In this document: piece by piece, positions 1-64,000 of the stretch
Layout of the letters: each line of letters starts with the position of its first letter
How positions within the stretch are numbered: the first letter of the stretch is position 1
Assembly (NCBI RefSeq): GCF_029227915.1
Contig: NC_079888.1
Location: 6,751,001-6,815,000, forward strand
Reading direction: 5' to 3'
From: Hydractinia symbiolongicarpus
Taxonomy: Eukaryota > Cnidaria > Hydrozoa > Anthoathecata > Hydractiniidae
DNA: 64,000 bases
Notes under the pieces: model-generated
Databases searched by the model: none
Told to the model about the DNA's origin: nothing
Seen by the model: only the letters and a program-made list of their open reading frames with translations
Translations under genes and position numbers: made by a program

Positions 1-1360
1 GCTGTATAAACATGGTATGTGGTTATAAGAACCTCAATTTTCTTGTGAACCTGGAATTAATAAAATAATCCAAGCGGAAAACATTTTCCGGAAAAAATGA
101 CGTAATTTACAACTCTGCTAGCTTATGTCAACAATAAAACATTTTTTTATTCTGTTAATTAATGAAAAGTTGATGAGTCATTTAACGCATTGTTTATTTT
201 ACAGATTAGTTATGTAATTTAAAAAGTCTATAAACGCATTGTAGATGAATTGTTCAGTAAGACAATATCTAAACAACAACAAAAACAACAAAAGCAACGA
301 CAACAACAACAATGACAATGACAATTACGACGACGAAAACAAGGTAGCTACATACTTTTACATATTTGAAGTACTGCTTCACATTAAAATCAGTGATACA
401 TGCAAAGGATGAAAAATACGTTAGATTTGTTAAAACAATATAAAAATACGATATGTGTGGCTAATGCAATGGCCTCAACGCTTTTCCTTTTAGCAAGTGA
501 CTAACGCAGAATCTTTGAAATCTAAGTCAGCATTCAGTTTCTAGATCTGCAACGTGCAGTTTTTCTTTTCTTGCTACACATTATGGCGTTTTTTATTTGG
601 GAGAAAAGTATTTACTCTTCTCATAATGCCCCATATTCTCCTCCCCCCCTCCCTAGCCACACCTCTCAGCACCATTTTGCAAACACTTTGTGTAGTTTCA
701 AGCAACTCTATAAGCATGATTTTGTTATAGTACTTAGAAATTTAGAATTGTTAATAACGCAGCAATTTCGTACTCATTCCTTTGTTGATCTTTTGTTGTA
801 AGCGACTGTTTCAACACGTAATGGCTACAAAAAATGTCATATTGGTTAGCACTGTTGCGAAATTTTGTATAATTCAATCACCGGAGGACATCGTTAACTG
901 TTTCCTCTTTGTTGTTTTATTAGATAGTGTATTTTTAGTATCGTCAGTTTAACCACATAATGAAATAAAAAGCGTCAGAAAGGTGTTCTTCACAATTTTG
1001 ATTATGTGGTTGTATATTGCAAAATACAATGAAAATGATTGCGTAAAAGAATTAGTTATAAACTTATTAAAGTTCCACATGCTCATATGCGGGTCACGAT
1101 GAATCAATTCTTTACAAACTGCCAGAATAGTCTAGATTACAAATTGAAGGACTTCATCCTCCTAGGATACAGCCGATAACCTTTTCTTAAAATTCGTGTA
1201 AGCCACTTAACTTAAGTTAACTTTCATTTCGTAACAACTACCTTAAATACTATGTACGATAAGAATCAAACCATCATATAATGCAAATTTGTGTGTCATT
1301 TGTTTATTGAAAATAAAAAACTGTATATCCCGAAATACGAACATGGGCCATGTTCGCATC
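1..1360. other. Intergenic, no gene seen
   Basis: No credible exon on either strand. The only open frame of note (571-801 plus) has no recognisable protein pattern and is probably chance. The stretch contains a CAA/GAC-type microsatellite (272-345) and is otherwise AT-rich unique-looking sequence. Confidence 0.6.
272..345. repeat. Composite CAA / GAC microsatellite
   Basis: A run of CAACAA units grades into TGACAATGACAA and then ACGACGACG. Read on the minus strand it is a GTC-GTT composite, the same composition as the microsatellites at 9661-9790 and 39805-39950. Confidence 0.8.
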
Positions 1361-30000: not shown

Positions 30001-32563
30001 CAGCCATGTTAGGCCATCTACAATTTTCAAATGAAAAAGTGGGCTTATCAAATGATAAGGTTTGTACTTTACTACTCTTGCATGAACTGGTGTAAAAAAA
30101 AAAATTAAATTACAATTAAAATTAACAAAGAATAAGAAACGTCATTCAAACATACATTGTTTTATTTTACTAAATTAGCATTTTATTTTTTATATTAGCG
30201 TTTTAGAATTTTGTTTATTATAGTAGCGATTTTTTCAAACTCTTCTCCGCAGGGATCATACATGTTACAGACGACAGCTCACTCCATATCTCCTCCGCCC
30301 CGTATGGATCGCCATGTACCTGTAATACCTTCTTCAAACGGACAGATGGTTCTAGTTCCTTACCCGCCTCCACCTCATCATATGCACCCAGTACCTCACA
30401 TGCCACATATGGAGAGTGAACGAAGTGCCGTCCATTCTCCACACCCTGTTTCTAGAGAATCAAGGGAACGTCAAAACTCTCCATCGCCGTCTACATCACC
30501 GAGAAGACACTCCACCTCACATGGTCAGGTTATCACACCCACAAGTCATCAAAGTTACATTTCTCATACAAAAACAATGCATGGACAAGGTCATTATCAT
30601 ATTCCACCAGGCCACTACTTTCCAGTTCATCATGGGTTTCCTGTCAGACCTGGATTGATGATGAAACGTGAATCGCCTGAACACGATACACGCAGCCCAA
30701 TTGAAGATCGCTATTCCGTACCTGGATTGATTCCAGTCTCGCATAGTGAAGAACTGCATCGGAACTCAATGATGGTAGAAACACTTCCCACGGGCCCTTC
30801 TCATATTTCAAGTGGTCACAAAATGCCAAGTAACGATTCTGTAGGCTACCATCCCGTTCGACGCAGAGGTGAAGCCGCAGCAATGGTGGATATTGGCCAC
30901 GGTATGTCATTTGGTACGTTCCTTATTTCAGACATAGATCAACTTTTTTTTACAGAACCTTGTTTTCAAAAATTTCAATGCTGAAGTGGTTTGTTATAAA
31001 TTATGCATTTACAACTGCTTCGTGTCGGTAGTGTCGGTAACATTTATTTTTAGAATTACGCACCAAGGGAAATTTGTACCAAGATCCAGATGTTAGACCT
31101 CCTTACACATACGCCTCGCTTATCAGGCAAGGTGTTCTCGATTCGCCAAACGGTGAATTAACGTTGAATGAAATTTACCAATGGTTTATGAAAAATTTTG
31201 CATACTTTCGAAAGAATACAAGTACATGGAAGGTAAGCCAAGAATTTTTTTAGTTTTTTTTTTTTAATACTTCTTTTTGGACTCTTGACATGAAATTTCT
31301 AATTGCTAGAGGAGTGGAATCACGTCGGTAGAGTCAGCATGTTTTTCTCAAAGTTCACCTTCGGAAATTTTGAAAATACGATTTCTTTAGAACGCAGTTC
31401 GACATAATCTCAGTTTACACAAATGTTTCGTACGAAAAGAAAATCATAAAGGTGCTGTGTGGACGGTGGACGATGTTGAATTCTTCAGGCGAAGGATGAC
31501 AAAACCAGGACTGTAAGTTGGCATGTCATATTGTCACGTGGCCTCATCTGTCAAGTCTATGAAATATCTTACAATTGGGTATAATTTGGACTGTTTGGAA
31601 AATGAAGCAACTGTTAATGAAGATAAAAGTGTCTAAATTTTTTATATATAGTTGCCATGTTTGTTTATACATATTTGCTCGATATTTCAGACCGAAACGC
31701 GAATATTACGCTCCATCAGAAAACAACAATCAAGGCTCAAACTCTCCTCCTGAACCAGAAGATGATTACGTAACAGACGAACCTCTTCCTTCTATGGCTA
31801 TGGACAATTCAATAAGAAAGGATTCAAATGACGAAGAGGAGGAGAGTGAAGGACCCCGTGATGAAGTATTTACTGGTCCTCCAGAGAAGATGAGAAAATG
31901 TGACGAATACTCAATGGAGAAGTAATTTTTTTCTTAAATTTAGATGATTAAATTAGTTTATTTCTTTGTAATAAGTACAGACTTCGTAGCGTCTAGAAAA
32001 AAAGAGAACATACTTGACAAGTAATGTCTGTAAAATAGGGGAAAATAACGCCAAAAAAAAGTCAGGGAAATATTTTACAAGAATGTCACATGTTTATTGT
32101 TTCCATATACTTTTATACTTTCATAATAATTGCACTAATTCTCTCTTACTTGATAATATAGTATGATTTTCAAAAGATTGATTCCTTACTACTAATATTA
32201 ATTTTTTTACTAAAATCACTGAAAGTAATAGCTTTTTGCTGTATTGATACCTTATTCACGTCGGAAAATCAACGAAAGTCGTGTATTTGTATAGGAAGAA
32301 GTTCCACCTAAAACATCTAAGTAATATATGACCTTTTTTCTTAGTCAACCTGGTATTACGGTGATCAAGGAAGAATTCGAGGACGAATTAAGAAACATGA
32401 CGTCACAGTAAGTAATCTAAAATAACCTTTTTAACTTTCCTCACAGACTCTCTAGTTAAAATGTTACCTTGTATTCTAGCTGTCATAATTCATGTGTTTT
32501 TTTTCGTTTAGAGAGTACGAGAGATCGCTAAATGAGACCGTTACGGTGGTAACGGCATCTTGA
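26794..32563 (+). CDS. Forkhead box P (FOXP) transcription factor
   Basis: Exons 26794-27006, 27433-27503, 29287-29315, 29468-29549, 29694-29781, 29976-30059, 30253-30901, 31054-31232, 31391-31512, 31691-31921, 32345-32407 and 32512-32563 join in frame to 620 codons plus TGA. A C2H2 zinc finger (C115, C120, H133, H138) is followed by a leucine-zipper-like helix (about 139-178). A His/Pro/Ser-rich linker (190-405) precedes the forkhead domain (about 419-505) with [12 protein letters not shown] and the recognition helix [13 protein letters not shown]. Known for the family: a nuclear DNA-binding repressor that dimerises through zipper and forkhead. FAYF (A455) carries the alanine typical of FOXP in place of the proline of other FOX proteins. 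The vertebrate poly-Gln N-terminus is absent, and the zipper-to-forkhead linker is much longer than in vertebrates. ATG 26794 is preceded in frame by a TAA. The last exon ends ETVTVVTAS. Confidence 0.93.
27690..28377. mobile_element. 682-bp MITE with TTA target duplication, in a FOXP intron
   Basis: The element 27693-28374 begins AGGCGGGTTTCCACTC and ends, in reverse complement, AGGCGGTTTTCCACTC. The terminal inverted repeats match at 24 of the first 25 positions and weakly for about 15 more. It is flanked by TTA on both sides (27690-27692, 28375-28377). There is no transposase frame. A 3-bp TWA duplication is typical of PIF/Harbinger elements; TTAA would suggest piggyBac, but that reading makes the two ends unequal by one base. 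Confidence 0.75.
28597..28657. repeat. Short direct duplication, 34-bp period
   Basis: CGACATCAAGACTGTATCG and TTGACCTT occur twice, at 28597-28623 and 28631-28657, with identical sequence. Confidence 0.8.
28741..29008. repeat. Tandem repeat, about 41-bp unit, in a FOXP intron
   Basis: Six units of the type CTATTTCGAACCTACTTTTA, AACCGGGGGTA, CTGTTTACAA. The last three are nearly identical and the first two are diverged, so the array is growing or being homogenised at its right end. Confidence 0.85.
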
Positions 32564-47317: not shown

Positions 47318-47344
47318 ATGACGGACAACGTCGAGGAACCCTGG
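47318..47344 (+). CDS. Candidate first coding exon of the tropomodulin gene
   Basis: ATG at 47318 follows a TTCAG acceptor-like tract. The frame MTDNVEEPW ends at a TGG|GTAATT donor (47344/47345) in phase 0, as required by the first firm tropomodulin exon at 55455. If used, intron 1 is 8.1 kb and contains both satellite arrays. Alternatives are an ATG directly before a donor at about 52158 or at 55321-55323. Inference only. Confidence 0.3.
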
Positions 47345-48448: not shown

Positions 48449-49518
48449 TAGTTTTAGCGCTACGCGACATCTTTGTTGTAGTTTAGTTGAGCGTTATGAA
48501 ACATCTTCAGTTGTAGTTTAGTTGCGCGTTATGAGACATCTTTGTTGTAGTTTAGTTGCGCATTATGATACATCTTCAGTTGTAGTTTAGTTGCGCGTTA
48601 TGAGACATCTTTGTTGTAGTTTAGTTGAGCGTTATGATACATCTTCGTTGTAGTTTAGTTGAGCTTTATGATACATCTTTGTTGTAGTTTAGTTGAGCGT
48701 TCTGAGATATCTTTGTTGTAGTTTAGTTGAGCGTTATGATACATCTTTGTTGTAGTTTAGTTGAGCGTTCTGAGATATCTTTGTTGTAGTTTAGTTGAGC
48801 GTTCTGAGATATCTTTGTTGTAGTTTAGTTGAGCGTTATGATACATCTTCAGTTGTAGTTTAGTTGCGCGTTATGAGACATCTTTGTTATAGTTTAGTTG
48901 CGCATTATGATACATCTTCAGTTGTAGTTTAGTTGCGCGTTATGAGACATCTTTGTTGTAGTTTAGTTGAGCGTTATGATACATCTTTGTTGTAGTTTAG
49001 TTGAGCGTTATGATACATCTTTGTTGTAGTTTAGTTGAGCGTTCTGAGATATCTTTGTTGTAGTTTAGTTGAGCGTTCTGAGATATCTTTGTTGTAGTTT
49101 AGTTGAGCGTTATGATACATCTTTGTTGTAGTTTAGTTGCGCGTTATGATACATCTTTGTTGTAGTTTAGTTGAGCGTTATGATAAATCTTCAGCTGTAG
49201 TTTAGTTGCGCGTTATGCGACATCTTCAGTTTTAGTTGAGTTGAGCGTTATGATGCATCTTCAGTTGTAGTTTAGTTGCGCGTTATGATACATCTTTGTT
49301 GTGGTTTAGTTGAGCGCTATGATACATCCTCAGTTGTAGTTTAGTTGAGCGTTATGATACATCTTAAGCTGTAGTTTAGTTGAGCGTTATGAGATATCTT
49401 TTTTGTGGTTTACTTGCGCGTTATGATACATCTTTGTTGTAGTTTAGTTGAGCGCTATGAGATATCTTTGTTGTGGTTTAGTTGCGCGATATGCGACATC
49501 TTCAGTTGTAGTTCAGTA
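48449..49518. repeat. Satellite array, 34/35-bp unit, about 31 copies
   Basis: Unit TTGTAGTTTAGTTGAGCGTT, ATGATACATC, TTTG (34 bp) or TTCAG (35 bp). Variants GCGCGTT, GAGACATC and TCTGAGATATC recur in blocks. The left part is homogeneous and the right part (after about 49200) is diverged. Confidence 0.92.
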
Positions 49519-50431: not shown

Positions 50432-51872
50432 TTGTCTTCCATCAATAATCTTGTATGTCTTCCATCAATCACTTTGTATGTCTTAAATCAATCAATTTGT
50501 ATGTCTTCTATCAATCACTTTGCATGTCTTCCATCAATCACTTTGCATGTCTTCCATCAATCACTTTGCATGTCTTCCATCAATCACTTTGCATGTCTTC
50601 CATCAATCACTTTGTACGTCTTCCATAAATTACTTTGTATGTCTTCCATAAATCACTTTGTATGTCTTCCATAAATCACTTAGTATGTCTTCCATCAATC
50701 ACTTTGCATTTCTTCCATCAATCACTTTGTATGTCTTCCATAAATCACTTTGTATGTCTTCCATCAATCACTTTGCATGTCTTCCATCAATCACTTTGTA
50801 TGTCTTCCATAAATCACTTTGTATGTCTTCCATAAATCACTTTGTATGTCTTCTATCAATCACTTTGTATGTCTTCCATCAATCACTTTGTATGTCTTCC
50901 ATCAATCACTTTGCATTTCTTCCATCAATCACTTTGTATGTCTTCCATCAATCACTTTGTATGTCTTCCATAAATCACTTTGTATGTCTTCCATAAATCA
51001 CTTTGTATGTCTTCTATCAATCACTTTGTATGTCTTCCATCAATCACTTTGTATGTCTTCCATCAATCACTTTGCATTTCTTCCATCAATCACTTTGTAT
51101 GTCTTCCATCAATCACTTTGTATGTCTTCCATCAATCACTTTGTATGTCTTCCATCAATCACTTTGCATTTCTTCTATCAATCACTTTGTATGTCTTCCA
51201 TAAATCACTTTGTATGTCTTCCATCAATCACTTTGCATTTCTTCTATCAATCACTTTGTATGTCTTCCATAAATCACTTTGTATGTCTTCCATCAATCAC
51301 TTTGCATTTCTTCTATCAATCACTTTGTATGTCTTCCATAAATCACTTTGTATGTCTTCCATCAATCACTTTGCATTTCTTCTATCAATCACTTTGTATG
51401 TCTTCCATAAATCACTTTGTATGTCTTCTATCAATCACTTTGTATGTCTTCCATCAATCACTTTGTATGTCTTCCATCAATCACTTTGCATTTCTTCCAT
51501 CAATCACTTTGTATGTCTTCCATCAATCACTTTGTATGTCTTCCATAAATCACTTTGTATGTCTTCCATCAATCACTTTGTATGTCTTCCATCAATCACT
51601 TTGCATTTCTTCTATCAATCACTTTGCATGTCTTCCATAAATCACTTTGTATGTCTTCCATAAATCACTTTGTATGTCTTCTATCAATCACTTTGTATGT
51701 CTTCCATCAATCACTTTGCATGTCTTCCATAAATCACTTTGTATGTCTTCCATCAATCACTTTGTATGTCTTCTATCAATCACTTTGTATGTCTTCTATC
51801 AATCACTTTGTATGTCTTCCATCAATCACTTTGTATGTTTCCCATCAATCACTTTGTATGTCTTTTATAAAC
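50432..51872. repeat. Satellite array, 23-bp unit, about 62 copies, with higher-order repeats
   Basis: Unit TCAATCACTTTGTATGTCTT CCA. Diagnostic variants (CCATAAA, CTATCAA, TGCATG, TGCATT) recur in fixed order: a 161-bp (7-unit) block repeats at about 50658, 50819 and 50980, and a 69-bp (3-unit) block repeats four times at about 51163-51440. The unit has no stop codon in any plus frame, so long periodic open frames up to 273 codons arise. These are not taken as genes. Confidence 0.93.
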
Positions 51873-55454: not shown

Positions 55455-58400
55455 TCATCTGATCTGACGGATATTGCTGAATTGCTTGATGAGGAAGGCT
55501 GGGATCTGTTAAATGGACTGACTGAGGAAGAGCTAGAACAGCTCAATAATGAGTTTGATCCAGAGGTAAATAAAAACACAACAAGAAATTGTCTCTATAA
55601 GAAAAAAAGTAGTAAATGCGTTTACTTTTAAATACTTCACCCCGTCAGTATACTATAAGTGTCAAAAATACCTGGGCATAAAGTTGATTTACACCTTAAA
55701 ATTTTAGGAAAATATTTAGAATCTACGTAAACGAAGCATCCCCTTCACATTGTACTTAGAACTAGACAAAAAATAATGATTTGGTTATGAGAATAAGAGT
55801 AGAAAAGGTTGTGTTATAAAGTAGTGTGAAAATATAGAAACAAAGGGATAAAATAATTCAGTTTTTAACTTTTTCGCTTCATTTTGGAAGTGATGTTTTC
55901 AGCAGACATGTATCTGTCCCGCAAAGTAAATTTAGGTAAGAAATGTATTAACCAGGACTCGTTTGAGAAGCAGTTTTCAACTGAAATAAATATTTTACAA
56001 ATAAAAAAGCAAGTTTTGAACTAAGTTCTTTAAAGCTCAAATTTGTCGTAAGCAAAAACTTTGGCGTAAAATCTAATTTTATTAAACCAACTTATTTAAA
56101 GACTTCCTAAGCCGTCCATTTTGATTTCAGATTTCATTGTCTCCAATCGGAAGCCGCCAACAAGTCAGATCACCTGTGCCTGCTGCGCCAATGTATAATA
56201 AAGAAGACCTCGTGGGCAATCTGGAAAAAATGGTACATTATTTATACGCACGGTCGATTTAAATTTGCATTAACAAATGGTCTCATTCAACCATAACGCT
56301 ATTAGAGATTATTAACCGAAAGAAATAGAGTAGGCAAGAAAAAATCCGCTTTCAGCGAACATCGGAATGTTAAAGTTTTCAACCATATAACCTTGTGTTA
56401 TTTTCTCATATTTTCTGAATATCCTAGCGACTAAGTTTTTCTTTCTATGGAAGATATGAAGTATATAATTACGAAAATTTTGTTCTTTCAAACAGTAAAA
56501 ATGAGTCTTTTAAAAAATCATAAAAATCATTAACTCGCTCAGCAAAGTAATTGAATTCATTACACTCTATATTTTAATAATCGCCTCCCATGCGCCATTA
56601 TGGTAATTCGTTGTTATGGTGATTTCATCATTTCATCATGCGTGAGAGTCACATTGGTATTCTGCGTCACGAAAATTAAATTAATTTTAAGAATTTTAAT
56701 CAGTTAACTTGGAGGATTAATAATAATTAGAAAAAAAATAAATACGAATTTAAATAAATAAATAAATATAGTTCTTAGAACGAGAATTGAATAAGAAATG
56801 TTCACAAGATATCATTTATGACAATATCTAAATCCAATGAAAATAAAAAAAATTAAATTTGACATTCATGTTGGATTATTCTTTACTTTAATTTCTCTTA
56901 GTAGCTACGTTCTTATCTTTCAAGGTTGCTAAATGTCAAGAACCGATAAAAAATGAAAAACTACGAAAAAAAGAAGAGAAAAAGCAGAAAGAAAAACAAG
57001 CAAGGTTAAAGAAACAATATTCTCGAGATAAAGAAGATTTGCTGCCACCGCCTCCCAAACAGGTAAAAAAAAAATAATAAATAAATAAATAAAAAAAACA
57101 ACTCTTGTTTCAAATGACAAAGGGTACGTAATGACAAAAAATTAATTGAATTAATTTCGGTATACCCATCGAGCCAATTTTATCTAAATGTATATTTGCT
57201 TAAAATAGTAAAAAGTAATATTCACATGTTCGTTTCCAATCTCCTAGATTGCTTTGACAGAAGAAGAGGAGCAGCTACTAAACGAGGCTACTGAAGAAGA
57301 ATTAATCGAGGCAGCAGGTAAATAATTTTTAAAATGTTTTTCTTGGATCGGAGATGGAGTTTGTAATTTACGAATTAAGATATTATAAGGAAAATATATA
57401 TTTCTTTCAATAATTGTTTTGGGATTTTGTAAAATAAAGATATCCAACTTGCATTCGGTTTTGTTCTGCACTATATACACAAACCATCCACCTCTAGAAA
57501 AAGCACTCCATGAAAAACAGTTTGAGCTGAGAGAGAAAATTCAACACATGCTGACAAAGCGAAAACAGCAACAAATTGACATGTCCTTCATCGATGATGA
57601 TGCTAAATCGTTTGACATAATATCAAACGGAGATGTAAACAAATCTCCAAATCGAAGCAGAAGAGTCGAAGATTGGAATATAATTACGTCATCGCCTAAA
57701 GATGATAAACAATTTGGGAGAGGTCACTCAGACTTTGTAGAAATTGACAGTGAAACTGATACAATAACGGAATTTATTATTGACAATCCGGAGTTTGATT
57801 TTGAAACGGATTCCAGCTTCGCACCATCAGACCTCTGGCTTGACGAATCAGATTTTAATTCAGATAGTGAAAGTAGCAGCTCATTAAAAAAAGTTAAACT
57901 GGCACACGTACACGCGCATGCGCGTAATGAAGAAGTAAATTTGTCCTCGCAAATGACAAAACAATTTACCTTCGCAGAAATTCGTAGATACAACAAGAAA
58001 GTTCGAAAATATAACGAATCTGTCGAAAAAGAAAATGCAAGAAGGCGAAAGCTTCGAGATAGCAAATCTAACTCTAATCGAAAATATAATTGGACACAAC
58101 AGATAAGACAACGACAAGGAGATAGTAACGACGAATTCTCCGACTGCAGTGATCAATACTTATCTTGCGCATCATCCGGTTCGTATTCTAAGAAAAATGG
58201 TGGCGTAAGATCGACACGTGGTAGTGAGGAACAAAACGGTTTGGCTGTCATACCCTATGCAGTTAACGATACACCGCAAGATGAAATTGCTGTTCCTCTT
58301 AAAGTAAATTTAAATGTTAGTGTTAGCAAGACTGAACAGGGGCGCGGTCAGGATAATGCAGAAATGCAGACCAGTAAACTGAAAGACGATTTAAGGAAAA

Positions 58401-59257
58401 TTGAAAGCCCTGAGAAGGAGATCAACGTAGCCGTGGATATCGAAGTAAACATTGACAAAGATGCTAACGCGGAGTTTAGAACTACAGTTAATGTACCTTC
58501 TGATTTAAAACAAAAGGGTTTGGATGTCAAAGTCAATGTTGATGAAAAAAGCATAGTTGATAATATGATCAAAGATATAGCAAGACGTCGAGAACAACGA
58601 AGAGCATTAGGTTACACCTCGTCGTTGGATGAAGGCGTTTCGCAAAATACTCATGTTCCGTTAAATGAATCTCCACCACGGACTATAAAACAAAATAGAT
58701 TTATGAAAGCTGTAACTAAATTTGAACCAGAAAACAACTTTCTCAAATCTGTAGACAGTCGAACTCAACAACAGGAGTCTTCTAAACGATTTGAACGCAG
58801 CGGAGGAGAGAATTTTTATGATGGAAACGGCGATGTTTATAGTGATTCAGGAATCGAACAAACTTCATCCGAGATGGGATTTGTAACACCAAATAGATTA
58901 GAAAGAGATTTAATTACACCTGTGGAGATGTTGAATGGAAGTGCTACGCCCAGTTCCAGTATACCCAATGAAGAAAGTTTATTGCAGACTGAAAATTTGA
59001 ATGTTCGTGACCTTCATACGGAATCAAGAATGGGAGATACAGAAACTGACCAAAAAGAACATGTTAATAAGCGTTCGAGAAAGTTATATTCCAAGGCGCG
59101 AAAAAATTCGTGTAAATTGAAAATCTCTCGTGATAAAAGTTTTGAGAAAAATAAAAAACAGATTGAGAAAATGGCTAAACAAAAAAGTTTTGAAGCGAAT
59201 AAAAACGGGAAGAAAATTTTGAGTAAGCAAAATACAATAGAAGCTCAAACAAATAGG

Positions 59258-59326
<69 letters not shown>

Positions 59327-62300
59327 GAAATTGAGAATGATAAAATATTGTCAAAAAAGAAGAATAAATATATGCGCCGTAACTCCAGCATCGATCGACC
59401 TTCAAAAATTTCGTCCTCAATTATGAAGTCTAAAATTAAAAGGACAGCCTCAACTGAGATCAAAGAAGATATGATAAAAAATTCTATTCCGTACAGTAAA
59501 TTACTGAAGAGCAATCGACTGTTGTTTCTTGAAGACAAATCCGAATCAAGTAGGGATAAATCTTCACAAAAAGAAGATAGTGTGGACAGAACTTTAAGGA
59601 AGGGAGAAAACGAAGTTAATAGAAGTAAATTAAATGAAAAAAAATTGTCTCGATGTAATGTGGCAGACACGAGTAACAGAGACAGCAAACTGTCACCACG
59701 CGACAATAATAAATCAAAATCTCGGCACGAAGAATTGCACCAAAGTCGTTTTAAAGACAATAAGAACTTATCACGTGACTCTAGAAATATCATTGGTAGG
59801 GAGATGGATGAATCACGTGATTTTAAAACACATGAGAAGATCAAAGATAAAAAGAAAAGTACCTGCAGTACTTTACTAGAAAAGTTAGAAAAATTAAACA
59901 AATCATCACTTGAGTCAAGCAACCAATCAGCATGCAAAGACAAAAGAGAAGCATTTGTAAGAAGAAAATTGTCACGTGATAAAAGCGTGGAAAAAATGAC
60001 ATCTCTCTATGAGAATAACAAGAACCTACATTCCTCTAAACAGACCAATGAAAAAAAAGTCCTGGATTACACAAAGCAAAATACTTTAGCAAACAAAACA
60101 CAGATTAACAAGAAAATAGAAAGAACAAGTATGACAAAGAAAGATGACAAATTGCCCAAACTGCCCAATAATGCTGAGTCAGCAAAACGTTTTGGTTTAC
60201 AGAGCTTGAAATCTCCTTCTCCGATAAATAAAACAAAATTTGAACCTGTATGCAACGAAAAGGAGGATGCGTTAAAAGCATTGGAAGCAATTCGTGCAAA
60301 ATTGAAAAAAGTTCCAAAACCGAAATGGATAGAAGACCCTGCTGAAGCCGAAGATGCTGATGATATGATTGGTCAACCATCACAAAGTAATGAAGAAGGT
60401 ACACCCAAAAAGAGAAGTGCACTGACTGCGTTGCTGGAACGAGATGCTGAAAAACATGAGAGCAAAAAATTTGAAGTAAAAAAAACAGCAGATGACAAAG
60501 TGGATGGTCGTGGTGTGTCGGCGGCTTTATTACAGCAAGGTAGAATACACATTTTAAAGTTTCATCACGGAAATATAATACATTCATGCACGAAGTTAAA
60601 CTTCACCATAAATATTTGAATCTTCATGCACAGTTTTTTTTTCAACAAACTCCATCTCTGTGTCTGAATTTATTATGTTTCTTTTGCTGTTTGATTGTAA
60701 ATTAAGACGCAAAACGGAGAGCTTTGCAAAAGGTTCGCTTGTCTTAGACGCTTTGTTTATCAAAATATATACATAATTTTGAAAAACTTTAGCAGATAGT
60801 AAGGCAACCAGCTAACTTAACGGTTCAAATAAAATGCAATTGATTGAAAATACCTATTCTCATAGAACACCTTATGATTTAACCCTCATTTCATGTCGTT
60901 TTAACTCACCCCAAAAAACCCATTGCAATCCTTTGTGAAACTCCAACTGGATAGCTTATTTATTGTTTTGCCACGAAAAACTTTTTCTCTCCCACTTCTT
61001 AAGCTTACATAGTTTTTCGTTAAGCCCATAAATTCCATAACAAGTGGCATAACATTTATTTATGATAGAATATAATTATTCAAATGTTGAACAAAATTTG
61101 AATCACGCATGTGGATCCAAAATACTGGACAAACCTGACCACTGTTATTTACTATAAATTTATCTCACAAATGCTTTTTAGCCTTGTTGAAGATGAATGG
61201 GATGCTGACAAACGATCAAATTCATTCTGTATTCGCTGGAGAGAAACCTCCTGGAGCAAGCATCAAGAGTACAAGTGAGTGGACTTCTGTAATTCATTTT
61301 TTTATGGACGATAAAGATTGTCTATGACACTATGATATTCCTACTGATTCGTCCACAAATCATGGCATGGTTCAGGGTACACAAATATCCATAGCATTTT
61401 CTTTAGCCTAAACTTTTGTAATTTTTAACTGACAAACCTTTAACACCCCAAACTTGTCTATATAACGCTATGATTTAGTTGCAACCCCTCCCTTTTATGT
61501 CTACTTGGATTTTTTACGTACCAACGGGCAACCGAGCCCTAAATTTAAACCCATTTTTGTAAGTTTCAGCCGAAAATCCTTTATCACATCAAACGTAAAG
61601 TGTTAAGCATTTATCCTTTTGATTGAGATTAAAATAACAAATGTTCTTCTTCAGCTGCTGTCAAAGCTACTCCTCGACCAACAAAACAAATTGTTCGACC
61701 TCAAGATGAAGAAACAGAGCTAGATGTTGTTGCATTGATGAAGAATTTGAAAGAAGACACTGATAGTTTGTTTTATGTTTGTATTAACAACGAACCAAAA
61801 CTAGAAAAACATGTCTTAAAAGAAATATTCTCTGCTGTTGAAGTTTCCAAAAAGATAAAACACCTGTCTTTAGCAATGACAGGATTGATTGATGCAGATA
61901 TAAAGGTAATTTATGGTGCTTGTATGTTTAAAAACTTCTAGTGGTATGTTTATGTAATCCCGAACGAGAATTGAATGACATACCTATTTATCTATTTGGT
62001 ATTTACAAAATTAAACTTTAGTTTCATGATTTTGTTAATTGTTAACTTAAATTTGAGCAGCTAGTTGGCCATACTAATTTAGAGGGGTGTAGTCTCTCGA
62101 TTGTATCCATGAGGGACCACAAAGTCCATTATAGAATGTTTAAAGTACCCATTTAAATTACGGACACCTTCACACTATCTGCCCAAACAGACAACTGTTT
62201 ACGTGGGAAACGAAACCACGGCCTATTGGGCACGAGTCGAGCGTTATACCGACTGAGCTATTAATTCTAATGTTTACAAGAGGACGAGAATGGATTCATT

Positions 62301-64000
62301 CTCTTTTTTTTTAGATTCTAGCCAGAGCCATCAGATACAATGAGCAATTAGAAACGTTGAATTTAGAGTCAAACATTATAACACAACATGGTCTGGAGGT
62401 GAGTGTTTGAGTTATCAAAACCTAGGACAATACAAATGTATTTGCATTGTCAAATTGTAGTGAGACTCAGGGGTTTACATGAAGGACTGGGATGAAGCGT
62501 TTAAAGATGAAACAAGTTGAATAGTTTAAAGGATAAAAAAGTTAATGAAAATATTTGTGTGCATCTAATTGCTTTTTTACTTATTAATTTTTTAGGCTTT
62601 GATGAAAGAAGTAGGACGGCATCCATCGCTGAGAGAAATCAAAATTTCTAATCAGGTAAAGATATTTCTTAAAATATCTTCAAGTGTTATTTTTATTTTT
62701 ATTTATTTATATATATATTTTAGCTAATATTAATTTTCGTTTCAGAAACAACCGTTTGGTGGTCAAGGAGAAGCTTTAATGGCTGATGCAATCCACAAAA
62801 ATGAAAATATTCTCAAATTTGGATATTCGTTTAAACAACCGGGACCGAGAAATAAAGCAGACAGAGCAATCATTAGACACAACGAAAATCGTAAGATCAT
62901 TGTCTTCATTTGGCAATATATCAAAAACACCATTGAGCTCAAGCATCTCCTTAACCGCGCTCTAGAACGATAATACATTATGTTAGTCTGTATATCAATC
63001 TTCAGCAAGAAGTGAGCGACGACACAATTTTTAAAACATCTTGTTACCTCCTCTTCGTATATTATATAACCCTGTTACAACTAGTCACATTAACCTATGT
63101 AAAATTAGACACCCACCACGTTATTTCTTTTCGTTTTTGTATTTCATCACATTCACTTCTTGTACTTTCTCAATACTAGTACGGCAACGACGCCGAAATG
63201 GAGAAGAAAATGTGTATGACTTGAAGGCCGTGTGCAAAATTCGTGACCCGTGGCCCCTGCCGTGGATAAAAGTCAAGGGCCGTCGGTTGCTTGGTGGCCT
63301 TATTGAAAACAAGGTAATTAATTGTAACAACACTATCGGACCAGTTCGTTAATGTTTTTAATCACTTTTTAATCGTACAAAATATTTTTTTGTAGGTAAC
63401 AGAGATGGGTCATATGGCTGGTGTCGAAAATGGCTCTAAAAGAGAATCACGTGGTTCAAACTTAAGAGAAGAGGAGGCGACGCCATTAGACATAAATGCA
63501 TTATTATCTGCAAGAAAATCAAAACTGAAGGGAACTTCAATAGCTGATCTTGAAGAACAACAACGAATGAAGAACAAAAGAATAATGCAAGAGATGCATG
63601 AAAGTACAAAACCAAGAATAGAAGAAGAAAATGAAACTGAAGAGAAGAAGGAAGATGTCACGCAATTGAATGAAAAGAAAGAAGATGTGACGCAGTTGAA
63701 TGAGAAGAAAGGAAATGTGACGTCATTGAATGAGAAAAGGGAAGATGTCACAAAGATGAATGGTGATACTAACTCGAACAGAAATCATCTTAAGAAGAAG
63801 CAAAAATCAGATAATGTTAAAGATTTTCCTTCTGATGAAAAAGAAGCTGAAGGGATGGGAAATGGAGGGAAACCTGTTGATAAAGGTGTAAAAGCTGCTA
63901 AAGATGAAAATTCTATCAACCTTGATAAAGTTGAAAAATCCTCTGAGAAAAGTAAAAACAGCGAGAATACACAAGATAATGATGAATCACCAGTAATCAA
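55455..64000 (+). CDS. Tropomodulin/leiomodin-family actin pointed-end protein (3' end outside window)
   Basis: Firm exons: 55455-55565, 56131-56232, 56925-57062, 57248-57317, 61182-61274, 61655-61905, 62315-62398, 62596-62655, 62746-62890, 63180-63313 and 63396 to the window edge, plus the optional exon 57498-60539. All phases agree. The N-terminal part (LLNGLTEEELEQLNNEFDPE, then MYNKEDLVGNLEKM) matches the tropomyosin- and actin-binding start of the family. EEEEQLLNEATEEELIEAA plus ALLKMNGMLTNDQ forms the second tropomyosin-binding helix. The leucine-rich part has SLFYVCINNEP, IKHLSLAMTGLIDADIK, LETLNLESNIIT and FGYSFKQPGPR. Known role: caps or nucleates actin filaments in sarcomeres and cortex. 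A basic segment, an unfamiliar DPWPLPWIK motif and a charged C-terminal extension follow, more like leiomodins than short tropomodulins; LLSARKSKLKGT is a weak WH2-like candidate. The true start codon is unresolved. Confidence 0.9.
57498..60539 (+). CDS. Giant phase-1 cassette exon of the tropomodulin gene
   Basis: The exon runs from a CCACCTCTAG acceptor (ends 57497) to a CAAG|GTAGAA donor: 3,042 bp, 1,014 codons, no stop. It enters and leaves in phase 1, so it can be skipped without changing frame. Skipping joins 57317 to 61182 as EEELIEAA-ALLKMNG, the canonical family helix. The encoded segment starts EKALHEKQFELREKIQHM, has an acidic stretch (about 57735-57885), a Val/Asn-rich part (KVNLNVSV, VKVNVDE; 58290-58570) and a basic Ser/Lys part with recurring SRDKS motifs. 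It then has 22 Gln encoded only by CAA (59261-59326) and ends GRGVSAALLQQ. It looks largely disordered; no known domain is recognised. Confidence 0.82.
59261..59326 (+). repeat. Pure (CAA)22 poly-Gln tract in the giant exon
   Basis: Uninterrupted CAA, 66 bp, in frame with the giant exon. Minus-strand frames over it are Cys, Val or Leu runs and are artefacts. Confidence 0.95.
62085..62270 (-). mobile_element. tRNA-derived SINE in a tropomodulin intron
   Basis: On minus, box A TAGCTCAGTCGG (62249-62260) and a box B-like GGTTTCGTTTCC (62206-62217) are followed by a body with GGTCCCTCATGG and GAGACTAC. The head is close to a real tRNA, but the T-arm is mutated (an extra T, and TTT where the box B consensus has the conserved purine and A). 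Confidence 0.65.
63642..63761 (+). repeat. 30-bp in-frame tandem repeat in the tropomodulin C-terminal exon
   Basis: Four 30-bp units encode the 10-residue repeat EKKEDVTQLN, with variants EKKGNVTSLN and EKREDVTKMN. The repeat lies in a highly charged extension that continues beyond the window. Confidence 0.9.

Follow-up and report, generated by a model that had tools for sequence, protein, structure and literature searches.

The gene and its parts

The window, meaning the whole 64,000-nucleotide stretch of Hydractinia symbiolongicarpus DNA that was analysed, contains a gene of the tropomodulin family. Tropomodulins cap the pointed ends of actin filaments, and help to set filament length in muscle and in membrane skeletons. 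The gene was assigned by a match to Pfam family PF03250 (E 5.7e-14) that covers the TMBS1/ABS1/TMBS2 region, and by an alignment of its protein with Tmod1 (E 1.6e-35) spanning residues 23-365, and the leucine-rich ABS2 domain is also present, residues 186-365 matching a tropomodulin domain of known structure (E 2e-25). None of the six other open frames of the window that were compared with Pfam gave a match at E 0.01. The parts of the gene, all on the forward strand, are as follows.

47318..47344, forward: tentative first coding exon (MTDNVEEPW), in frame, with the lowest-scoring donor of 19
55455..55565, forward: coding exon, N-terminal region with a TMBS1-like segment (reading frame, Pfam, paralogue comparison)
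56131..56232, forward: coding exon, ABS1 region (reading frame, Pfam, Tmod1 alignment)
56925..57062, forward: coding exon, charged linker, with extra introns on both sides relative to the paralogue
57248..57317, forward: exon of 70 bp, first half of the TMBS2 helix (EEELIEAA), ending in phase 1
57351..57364, forward: 5' arm of an inverted repeat, GAGATGGAGTTTGT, in the intron preceding the giant exon
57498..60539, forward: giant exon, 3,042 bp or 1,014 codons, in phase 1 at both ends, mostly disordered, with poly-Gln
59259..59326, forward: pure CAA microsatellite of 22.7 copies, encoding the poly-Gln run
60645..60658, forward: 3' arm of the inverted repeat, ACAAACTCCATCTC, in the intron following the giant exon
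61182..61274, forward: exon, second half of the TMBS2 helix (ALLKMNGMLTN), beginning in phase 1
61655..61905, forward: exon, start of the leucine-rich domain (Tmod1 alignment)
62315..62398, forward: exon, leucine-rich domain (Tmod1 alignment)
62596..62655, forward: exon, leucine-rich domain (Tmod1 alignment)
62746..62890, forward: exon, end of the leucine-rich domain (Tmod1 alignment)
63180..63313, forward: exon, start of a C-terminal extension missing from the paralogue (paralogue comparison)
63396..64000, forward: last exon, 911 codons, continuing past the window (L002:396-3131) to a stop at 66131

The gene thus outruns the window, its stop lying 2.1 kb beyond the edge, and the protein does not end shortly after ABS2, owing to a last exon that encodes a disordered tail of 911 aa. 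For this reason the gene is called here a tropomodulin paralogue and not a standard tropomodulin: by its sequence, it is a divergent paralogue in which two of the coding exons are large and disordered, the first lying within TMBS2 and the second at the C terminus. The predicted product is about 1,316 aa without the giant exon and 2,330 aa with it, compared with about 360 aa for a tropomodulin such as Tmod1 or the conventional 362-aa tropomodulin that the same animal encodes on contig C9. The window gene resembles these in its TMBS1/ABS1/TMBS2 region and its ABS2 domain, and differs in the giant exon within TMBS2 and in more than 900 extra C-terminal residues. Each of the seven C9 introns can be paired with one in the window gene, in matching order and phase (as read by eye). 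The original prediction had envisaged two forms, one of them normal; this does not hold, because the gene continues to the 911-codon exon, so that even the form lacking the giant exon keeps the 911-aa tail at about 1,316 aa and is no normal tropomodulin of about 350 aa. The animal's conventional tropomodulin is the separate gene on C9.

The giant exon

The predicted phase-1 junction of exons 57248-57317 and 61182-61274, which yields a tropomodulin helix, was confirmed to the base: joined directly, the two exons read ...EEELIEAAALLKMNGMLTNDQ. The open exon claimed to lie between them was likewise exact in its coordinates, phases and reading. It begins with A after the acceptor CCACCTCTAG and ends in CAAG before the donor GTAGAA, and belongs to an open stretch (57389-60616) of 1,076 codons, the longest in the six frames of the window. 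At the stop frequency of the window, the probability of 1,014 open codons is 6.6e-29; dinucleotide shuffles of the exon (n=300) contained on average 65 in-frame stops and never fewer than 48, with a longest open run of 213 codons. Chance cannot explain the open frame. The G+C content of the exon peaks at the first codon position, like that of the other exons of the gene; a synonymous-codon bias test was uninformative as a test of coding. Taken as a whole, the giant exon almost certainly belongs to this gene and is translated.

The encoded insert was expected to be disordered and to bear poly-Gln. The poly-Gln is present, and both composition and a low-confidence model indicate that the insert is mostly disordered: AlphaFold2, run on the whole insert without an alignment, gave a mean pLDDT of 42.9, with 758 of 1,013 residues below 50, and a beta-like part (58250-58648) reached a mean of only 51.0. 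The insert contains no Pfam domain, and at E up to 1 it has no homology to the tail or to the first 405 residues of its own gene. Of the three matches from a PDB search, again at E up to 1, one was weak and the others covered poly-Gln.

The inverted repeats lie 3.3 kb apart on either side of the exon, which raises the question whether the stretch 57351-60658 might be a mobile element or captured gene with these repeats as its ends. This is highly improbable: genome searches turned up the insert only once, setting aside two weak matches confined to its poly-Gln part, and the introns flanking it each gave one match in a genome DNA search that skips very common words. Further, the insert has no Pfam domain, there is no relative in the viral contigs (six stretches matched a pattern, none of them a relative), and the bases beside the two arms form no target-site duplication.

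Another proposal is that the open frame is an alternative first or last exon that yields a separate product, either started at 57498 by a promoter or a trans-spliced leader of its own or ended by polyadenylation in the following intron. The frame continues for 26 codons beyond the donor before a stop, and an AATAAA lies at 60828 in the following intron. However, one such motif is roughly what chance would provide in 642 A+T-rich bases (an estimate), and AATAAA also occurs in the preceding intron and again 57 bases downstream of the stop that ends the gene. Both borders of the exon carry splice sites of matching phase and no stop precedes the donor in frame, all of which makes a separate product improbable.

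Interruption of the TMBS2 helix

TMBS2 of Tmod1 has been described as residues 109-144 (PMC12109978). The insert falls within it, between the residues aligned to A132 and A133 of Tmod1, as had been proposed for the second tropomyosin-binding helix. In the skipped form the PF03250 match scores 52.7 bits (cut-off 23.3) and extends to profile position 142, whereas on the N-terminal side of the included form it scores 42.2 bits and stops at 131; TMBS2 is intact in the skipped form only. The giant exon sits within an intron common to the C9 paralogue, in which a 516-bp intron occupies the same codon in the same phase 1, without the insert.

Across the junction (window 140-159) the two paralogues share 13 of 20 residues, against 117/340 overall, a level met by 5 of 321 windows, the other four of which overlap one another near the N terminus. 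This well-kept helix favours skipping, although the same conservation could arise if each half were kept separately or if the insert were young. The hydrophobic moment at the junction gave no signal in any of six peptides.

The giant exon is a large symmetric coding exon, with the same phase at both ends, and the claim that it can be skipped in frame is correct as arithmetic. The main rival to a cassette exon is constitutive inclusion, giving a single 2,330-aa tropomodulin-like protein with TMBS2 permanently split, while the C9 gene does the ordinary capping. The existence of that conventional paralogue could have freed the window gene from constraint on TMBS2; and with another giant disordered exon at its C-terminal end, extra length may simply be a habit of this gene. 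Moreover, residues 2-24 of the insert are predicted to be helical (pLDDT about 63-71 in a single-sequence model), so that the helix might continue from EEELIEAA into the insert. Against this, the junction-spanning helix is kept as well as any stretch of the protein, and the splice sites and flanking introns described below would favour skipping. Constitutive inclusion is the less likely of the two.

Splice sites and the flanking introns

Splice sites were scored with leave-one-out matrices built from about 18 sites, taken from gene models drawn by eye. The donor of the 57248 exon (57317), which would be used in skipping, is the strongest of 19 at 11.19 bits; the acceptor of the giant exon (57498) is the last of 19 at -5.38 bits, and its donor (60539) is 14th at 3.23 bits. 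The combination of weakest acceptor on the giant exon and strongest skip donor suggests that skipping is favoured. Two results temper this. The skip acceptor at 61182 ranks only 12th of 19 (2.72 bits), which counts against skipping; and the acceptor of the 57248 exon, which is expected to be constitutive, is the second weakest (18th of 19, -4.10 bits), so that a weak acceptor on the giant exon is no proof of a cassette and is compatible with constitutive inclusion. Within the giant exon there are internal donors of up to 8.32 bits and acceptors of up to 5.71 bits, and other splice patterns are thus possible.

The two introns flanking the giant exon carry an inverted repeat that can pair over an unbroken 16 bp, one of the pairs being G-U; 14 bp of it are perfect. 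Its stacking energy is -29.65 kcal/mol; none of 2,000 shuffles was as low (lowest -27.11), and it ranks first of the 55 pairs among the 11 introns of the gene after the first, the next being -19.05. In real sequence, its strength was matched in 2 of 1,218 and 5 of 2,060 overlapping placements (about 0.2%), figures to be read with the fact that the repeat was first spotted by eye and the statistics computed afterwards. Of 20,000 shuffles, 83 contained a perfect match of at least 14, as did 1 of 668 real placements, and the duplex energy of the full introns is not unusual (42/200 shuffles as low). Human exons that are looped out by helices between introns are described as showing lower inclusion (PMC8052449), and the repeat suggests that the giant exon could be looped out in the same way, favouring skipping. 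A role for this RNA helix is put forward tentatively. The same source describes PCCRs, complementary intronic stretches around exons, among them one of 15 nt around DST exons 46-52, at -25 kcal/mol and with a span of 9.4 kb (PMC8052449). The window gene shares such complementarity between flanking introns, its helix being predicted from the sequence of one species.

A proposed cassette exon

The reading preferred here, with modest confidence, is that the giant exon is an alternative cassette exon in a divergent tropomodulin paralogue, whose inclusion splits TMBS2; that both the skipped and the included forms are made is fairly probable. With the exon left out, TMBS2 would be unbroken and the 1,316-aa product would cap pointed ends in the manner of a tropomodulin, while carrying a long tail. 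With the exon included, TMBS2 would be split into two hybrid ends some 1,000 mostly disordered residues apart in a protein of 2,330 aa. By analogy with work on vertebrates, this should weaken binding to tropomyosin at the second contact; the leucine-rich actin-binding domain might at the same time be freed from the N-terminal cap, giving a tethering or scaffolding protein. With less confidence, the weak splice sites of the giant exon and the 16-bp helix looping it out may bias splicing towards skipping.

Leiomodins, relatives of tropomodulin, are described as having lost TMBS2 and gained a C-terminal extension (PMC4571291), and one account places them in Olfactores (PMC5888912). Loss of TMBS2 of this type would hold in the window gene for the included form only. 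The gene shares a C-terminal extension with leiomodins and differs from them in other respects: a leiomodin scores its protein lower than does Tmod1 (78.6 against 126 bits), no Pfam family at E up to 5 was found in the last-exon protein and no WH2-like pattern in the tail, and in place of a proline-rich stretch after ABS2 the tail has 4.0% proline and no run of three or more. On a speculative and rather unlikely extension of the cassette reading, the intron helix would act as a switch between a tropomodulin-type cap with TMBS2 intact and a giant form with TMBS2 broken, so that splicing would achieve something resembling what vertebrate leiomodins reached by gene divergence.

Giant disordered cassette exons are a known kind of element, and TMBS2 of a tropomodulin would be a new place for one. 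Neuronal ankyrins, which are cytoskeletal adaptors, include a giant, mostly disordered, in-frame alternative exon. Those exons are similar to the present one in size, disorder and frame, although the protein is unrelated and the exon described here breaks a binding helix. The interruption of a functional helix also sets it apart from the general trend, reported for internal exons, that longer ones more often encode disorder (PMC9825244). Among the matches listed in a search of titles and abstract openings covering few subscription journals, no cnidarian tropomodulin with an insert appeared, and nothing was found that joined tropomodulin and Hydractinia.

The striated muscle of cnidarians is regarded as an independent evolutionary acquisition. 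If the proposal is true, a gene that splits TMBS2 by means of one exon would provide a natural test of TMBS2 function in a cnidarian, and the intron helix would be a concrete, small and testable RNA element for control of the giant exon.

Extent and family of the tropomodulin paralogue

The divergent tropomodulin gene on the forward strand was viewed in the original prediction within the window only, which gave it too small an extent: its last exon carries on into the downstream DNA (L002) as far as a stop at 66131. The window itself occupies C14:6751001-6815000.

L002:396-3131 (window 63396-66131), forward strand: last exon, 911 codons, with several near-identical repeats (SVSSLRRKKLDADKEVSESP...)

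With a tentative first exon at 47318, the predicted products have 1,316 amino acids if the giant exon described below is skipped and 2,330 if it is included. The tail matched no Pfam family, and a search of the genome (480,894,487 bases in 76 contigs) found it only at its own locus among the best 50 of 97 candidates scored. By a charge and hydropathy measure the tail is disordered, like the insert encoded by the giant exon, as are the N-terminal 149 residues; the leucine-rich part is folded. PF03250 recognises the skipped form at 52.7 bits (cut-off 23.3), and among solved structures the top match is Tmod1 (E 1.6e-35, 126 bits, residues 23-365), followed by leiomodin-2 (78.6 bits) and TMD-1 (75.1 bits).

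The presumed 8.1-kb first intron houses two tandem arrays, at 48467-49517 (34-bp unit, 30.6 copies) and 50433-51864 (23-bp unit, 62.3 copies), the latter of which yields long open frames without gene evidence. The convergent neighbour of the gene is a single open frame that matches the Rolling stone family (L002:6458-7438, minus strand; PF21534, E 2e-8). A further open frame of 261 codons at 30199-30981 has 45% G+C, against a window mean of 33%, and gave nothing in Pfam at E 0.01.

The giant exon and its insert

The coordinates and phases originally proposed around the giant exon were all borne out on re-reading of the sequence.

57498-60539, forward strand: giant exon, 3,042 bp, 1,014 codons, phase 1 to phase 1, between exons 57248-57317 and 61182-61274

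On translation, skipping gives the joined reading ...NEATEEELIEAAALLKMNGMLTNDQIHSVF, and inclusion gives ...EEELIEAAEKALHEKQFELREKIQHML... at the upstream junction and ...GRGVSAALLQQALLKMNGMLTN at the downstream one. The open stretch around the exon extends over 1,076 codons, more than any other in the window; 1,014 open codons have an expected frequency of 6.6e-29 from the stop frequency of the window, and 300 dinucleotide shuffles of the exon contained at least 48 in-frame stops and no open run beyond 213 codons. Its length by itself is not unique, since a 200-kb genome sample contains one open frame, of 1,222 codons, that exceeds it.

Searched against the genome, the insert gave its own locus and, on its poly-Gln part, two weak matches (E 4.0e-5 and 4.8e-4). 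AlphaFold2, run without an alignment, assigned pLDDT below 50 to 758 of 1,013 residues, and modelled helices at residues 2-24 and 158-188, a long helix that covers the poly-Gln, together with a few weak elements. Alternating hydrophobic strands and then a helix are discernible at 58250-58648, where AlphaFold2 gives low-confidence strands and a helix in blocks of pLDDT about 60-67. The poly-Gln (about 22 residues) is encoded by a pure CAA microsatellite at 59259-59326, inside the coding exon, whose length is likely to differ among individuals. Residues 545-833 (59129-59995) bear four copies of a short motif like [RK]-[DQ]-[KN]-[ST]-[FIV]-E (RDKSFE, KQKSFE, KQNTIE and RDKSVE), which are possible kinase sites.

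The C9 paralogue and the case for skipping

An exon-wise genome search with PF03250 found, at E 0.001 or better, a single place, on contig C9; it missed the window gene, whose split exons fall short of E 0.001, so that other split genes may escape it too.

L003:7026-1650 (C9), minus strand: conventional tropomodulin, 362 amino acids, gene model drawn by eye

The C9 protein stops just past the leucine-rich domain. All seven of its introns have, by eye, a counterpart of the same order and phase in the window gene, one pair being offset by about two residues where the alignment is uncertain. Counting along the alignment places the insertion point between the counterparts of Tmod1 A132 and A133, inside the second tropomyosin-binding site (TMBS2), which spans residues 109-144 according to PMC12109978. 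At the same split alanine codon the C9 gene has a phase 1 intron of 516 bp (L003 5163-4648), without a long exon. Because the introns match in order and phase, the TMBS2 intron is most likely older than the duplication, with the giant exon sitting within it.

The two paralogues share 117 of 340 aligned residues. The 20-residue window 140-159, across the junction 149/150, has 13 identities; 5 of 321 such windows have at least 13, and the four besides this one overlap one another near the N terminus. The Pfam match to the skipped form reaches the profile end; for the included form, the N-terminal side matches at 42.2 bits as far as position 131 of 142, and the C-terminal side gives no match. In splice-site matrices built from the introns of both paralogues, leaving out each site in turn, the skip donor (57317) ranks first of 19 and the skip acceptor (61182) a middling 12th, while the giant-exon donor ranks 14th and its acceptor last. 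A weak acceptor is not special to the giant exon, since that of the preceding exon (57248) ranks 18th of 19. Conservation, profile and splice-site ranks, together with the inverted repeat described next, bear on skipping indirectly; the strongest rival explanation is that the giant exon is included constitutively.

An inverted repeat in the flanking introns

57351-57364: 5' arm, GAGATGGAGTTTGT, in the intron before the giant exon
60645-60658: 3' arm, complement of GAGATGGAGTTTGT, in the intron after the giant exon

The arms would form a helix of 16 contiguous base pairs, including one G-U pair, with 3 more beyond a bulge; for nine other exons of the gene, the introns on either side have at most 10 nt in common. 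Its energy, -29.65 kcal/mol, was equalled in 0 of 2,000 shuffles and ranks first among the 55 pairs formed by 11 introns of the gene, a set that excludes the 8.1-kb first intron. In real sequence at the same spacing this energy was reached in 2 of 1,218 and 5 of 2,060 placements, the latter five in 2 of 20 loci; such placements overlap and so do not count as independent trials. Shuffling produced a perfect match of 14 or more in 83 of 20,000 cases, and the real sequence had one in 1 of 668 placements. Taken over the whole introns, the duplex energy is unremarkable, with 42 of 200 shuffles as low. The helix statistics are somewhat flattering because the repeat was spotted by reading and tested afterwards. 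A repeat family or transposon ends are disfavoured as the origin of the arms, since each intron matched itself alone in a genome search by DNA, which passes over very common words.

A proposed splice switch

In human pre-mRNAs, exons enclosed by such complementary regions show lower inclusion, and known functional cases reach over kilobases (both from PMC8052449); hence the proposal that the intron helix favours skipping. No paper joining tropomodulin with Hydractinia was found in the literature searched.

In outline the predicted included form would resemble a leiomodin, with TMBS2 disrupted and a C-terminal extension: vertebrate leiomodins have lost TMBS2 and gained such an extension (PMC4571291). 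It is nevertheless not filed as one, because neither a WH2 domain nor a run of prolines was found in it, and because leiomodins are placed in Olfactores (PMC5888912).

In the proposed switch, the helix would draw the strong donor at 57317 closer to the acceptor at 61182, favouring skipping and leaving TMBS2 intact. Were the helix opened, or the weak sites helped, the giant exon would be included, and about 1,000 mostly disordered residues would then separate the N-terminal tropomyosin and actin sites from the leucine-rich domain.
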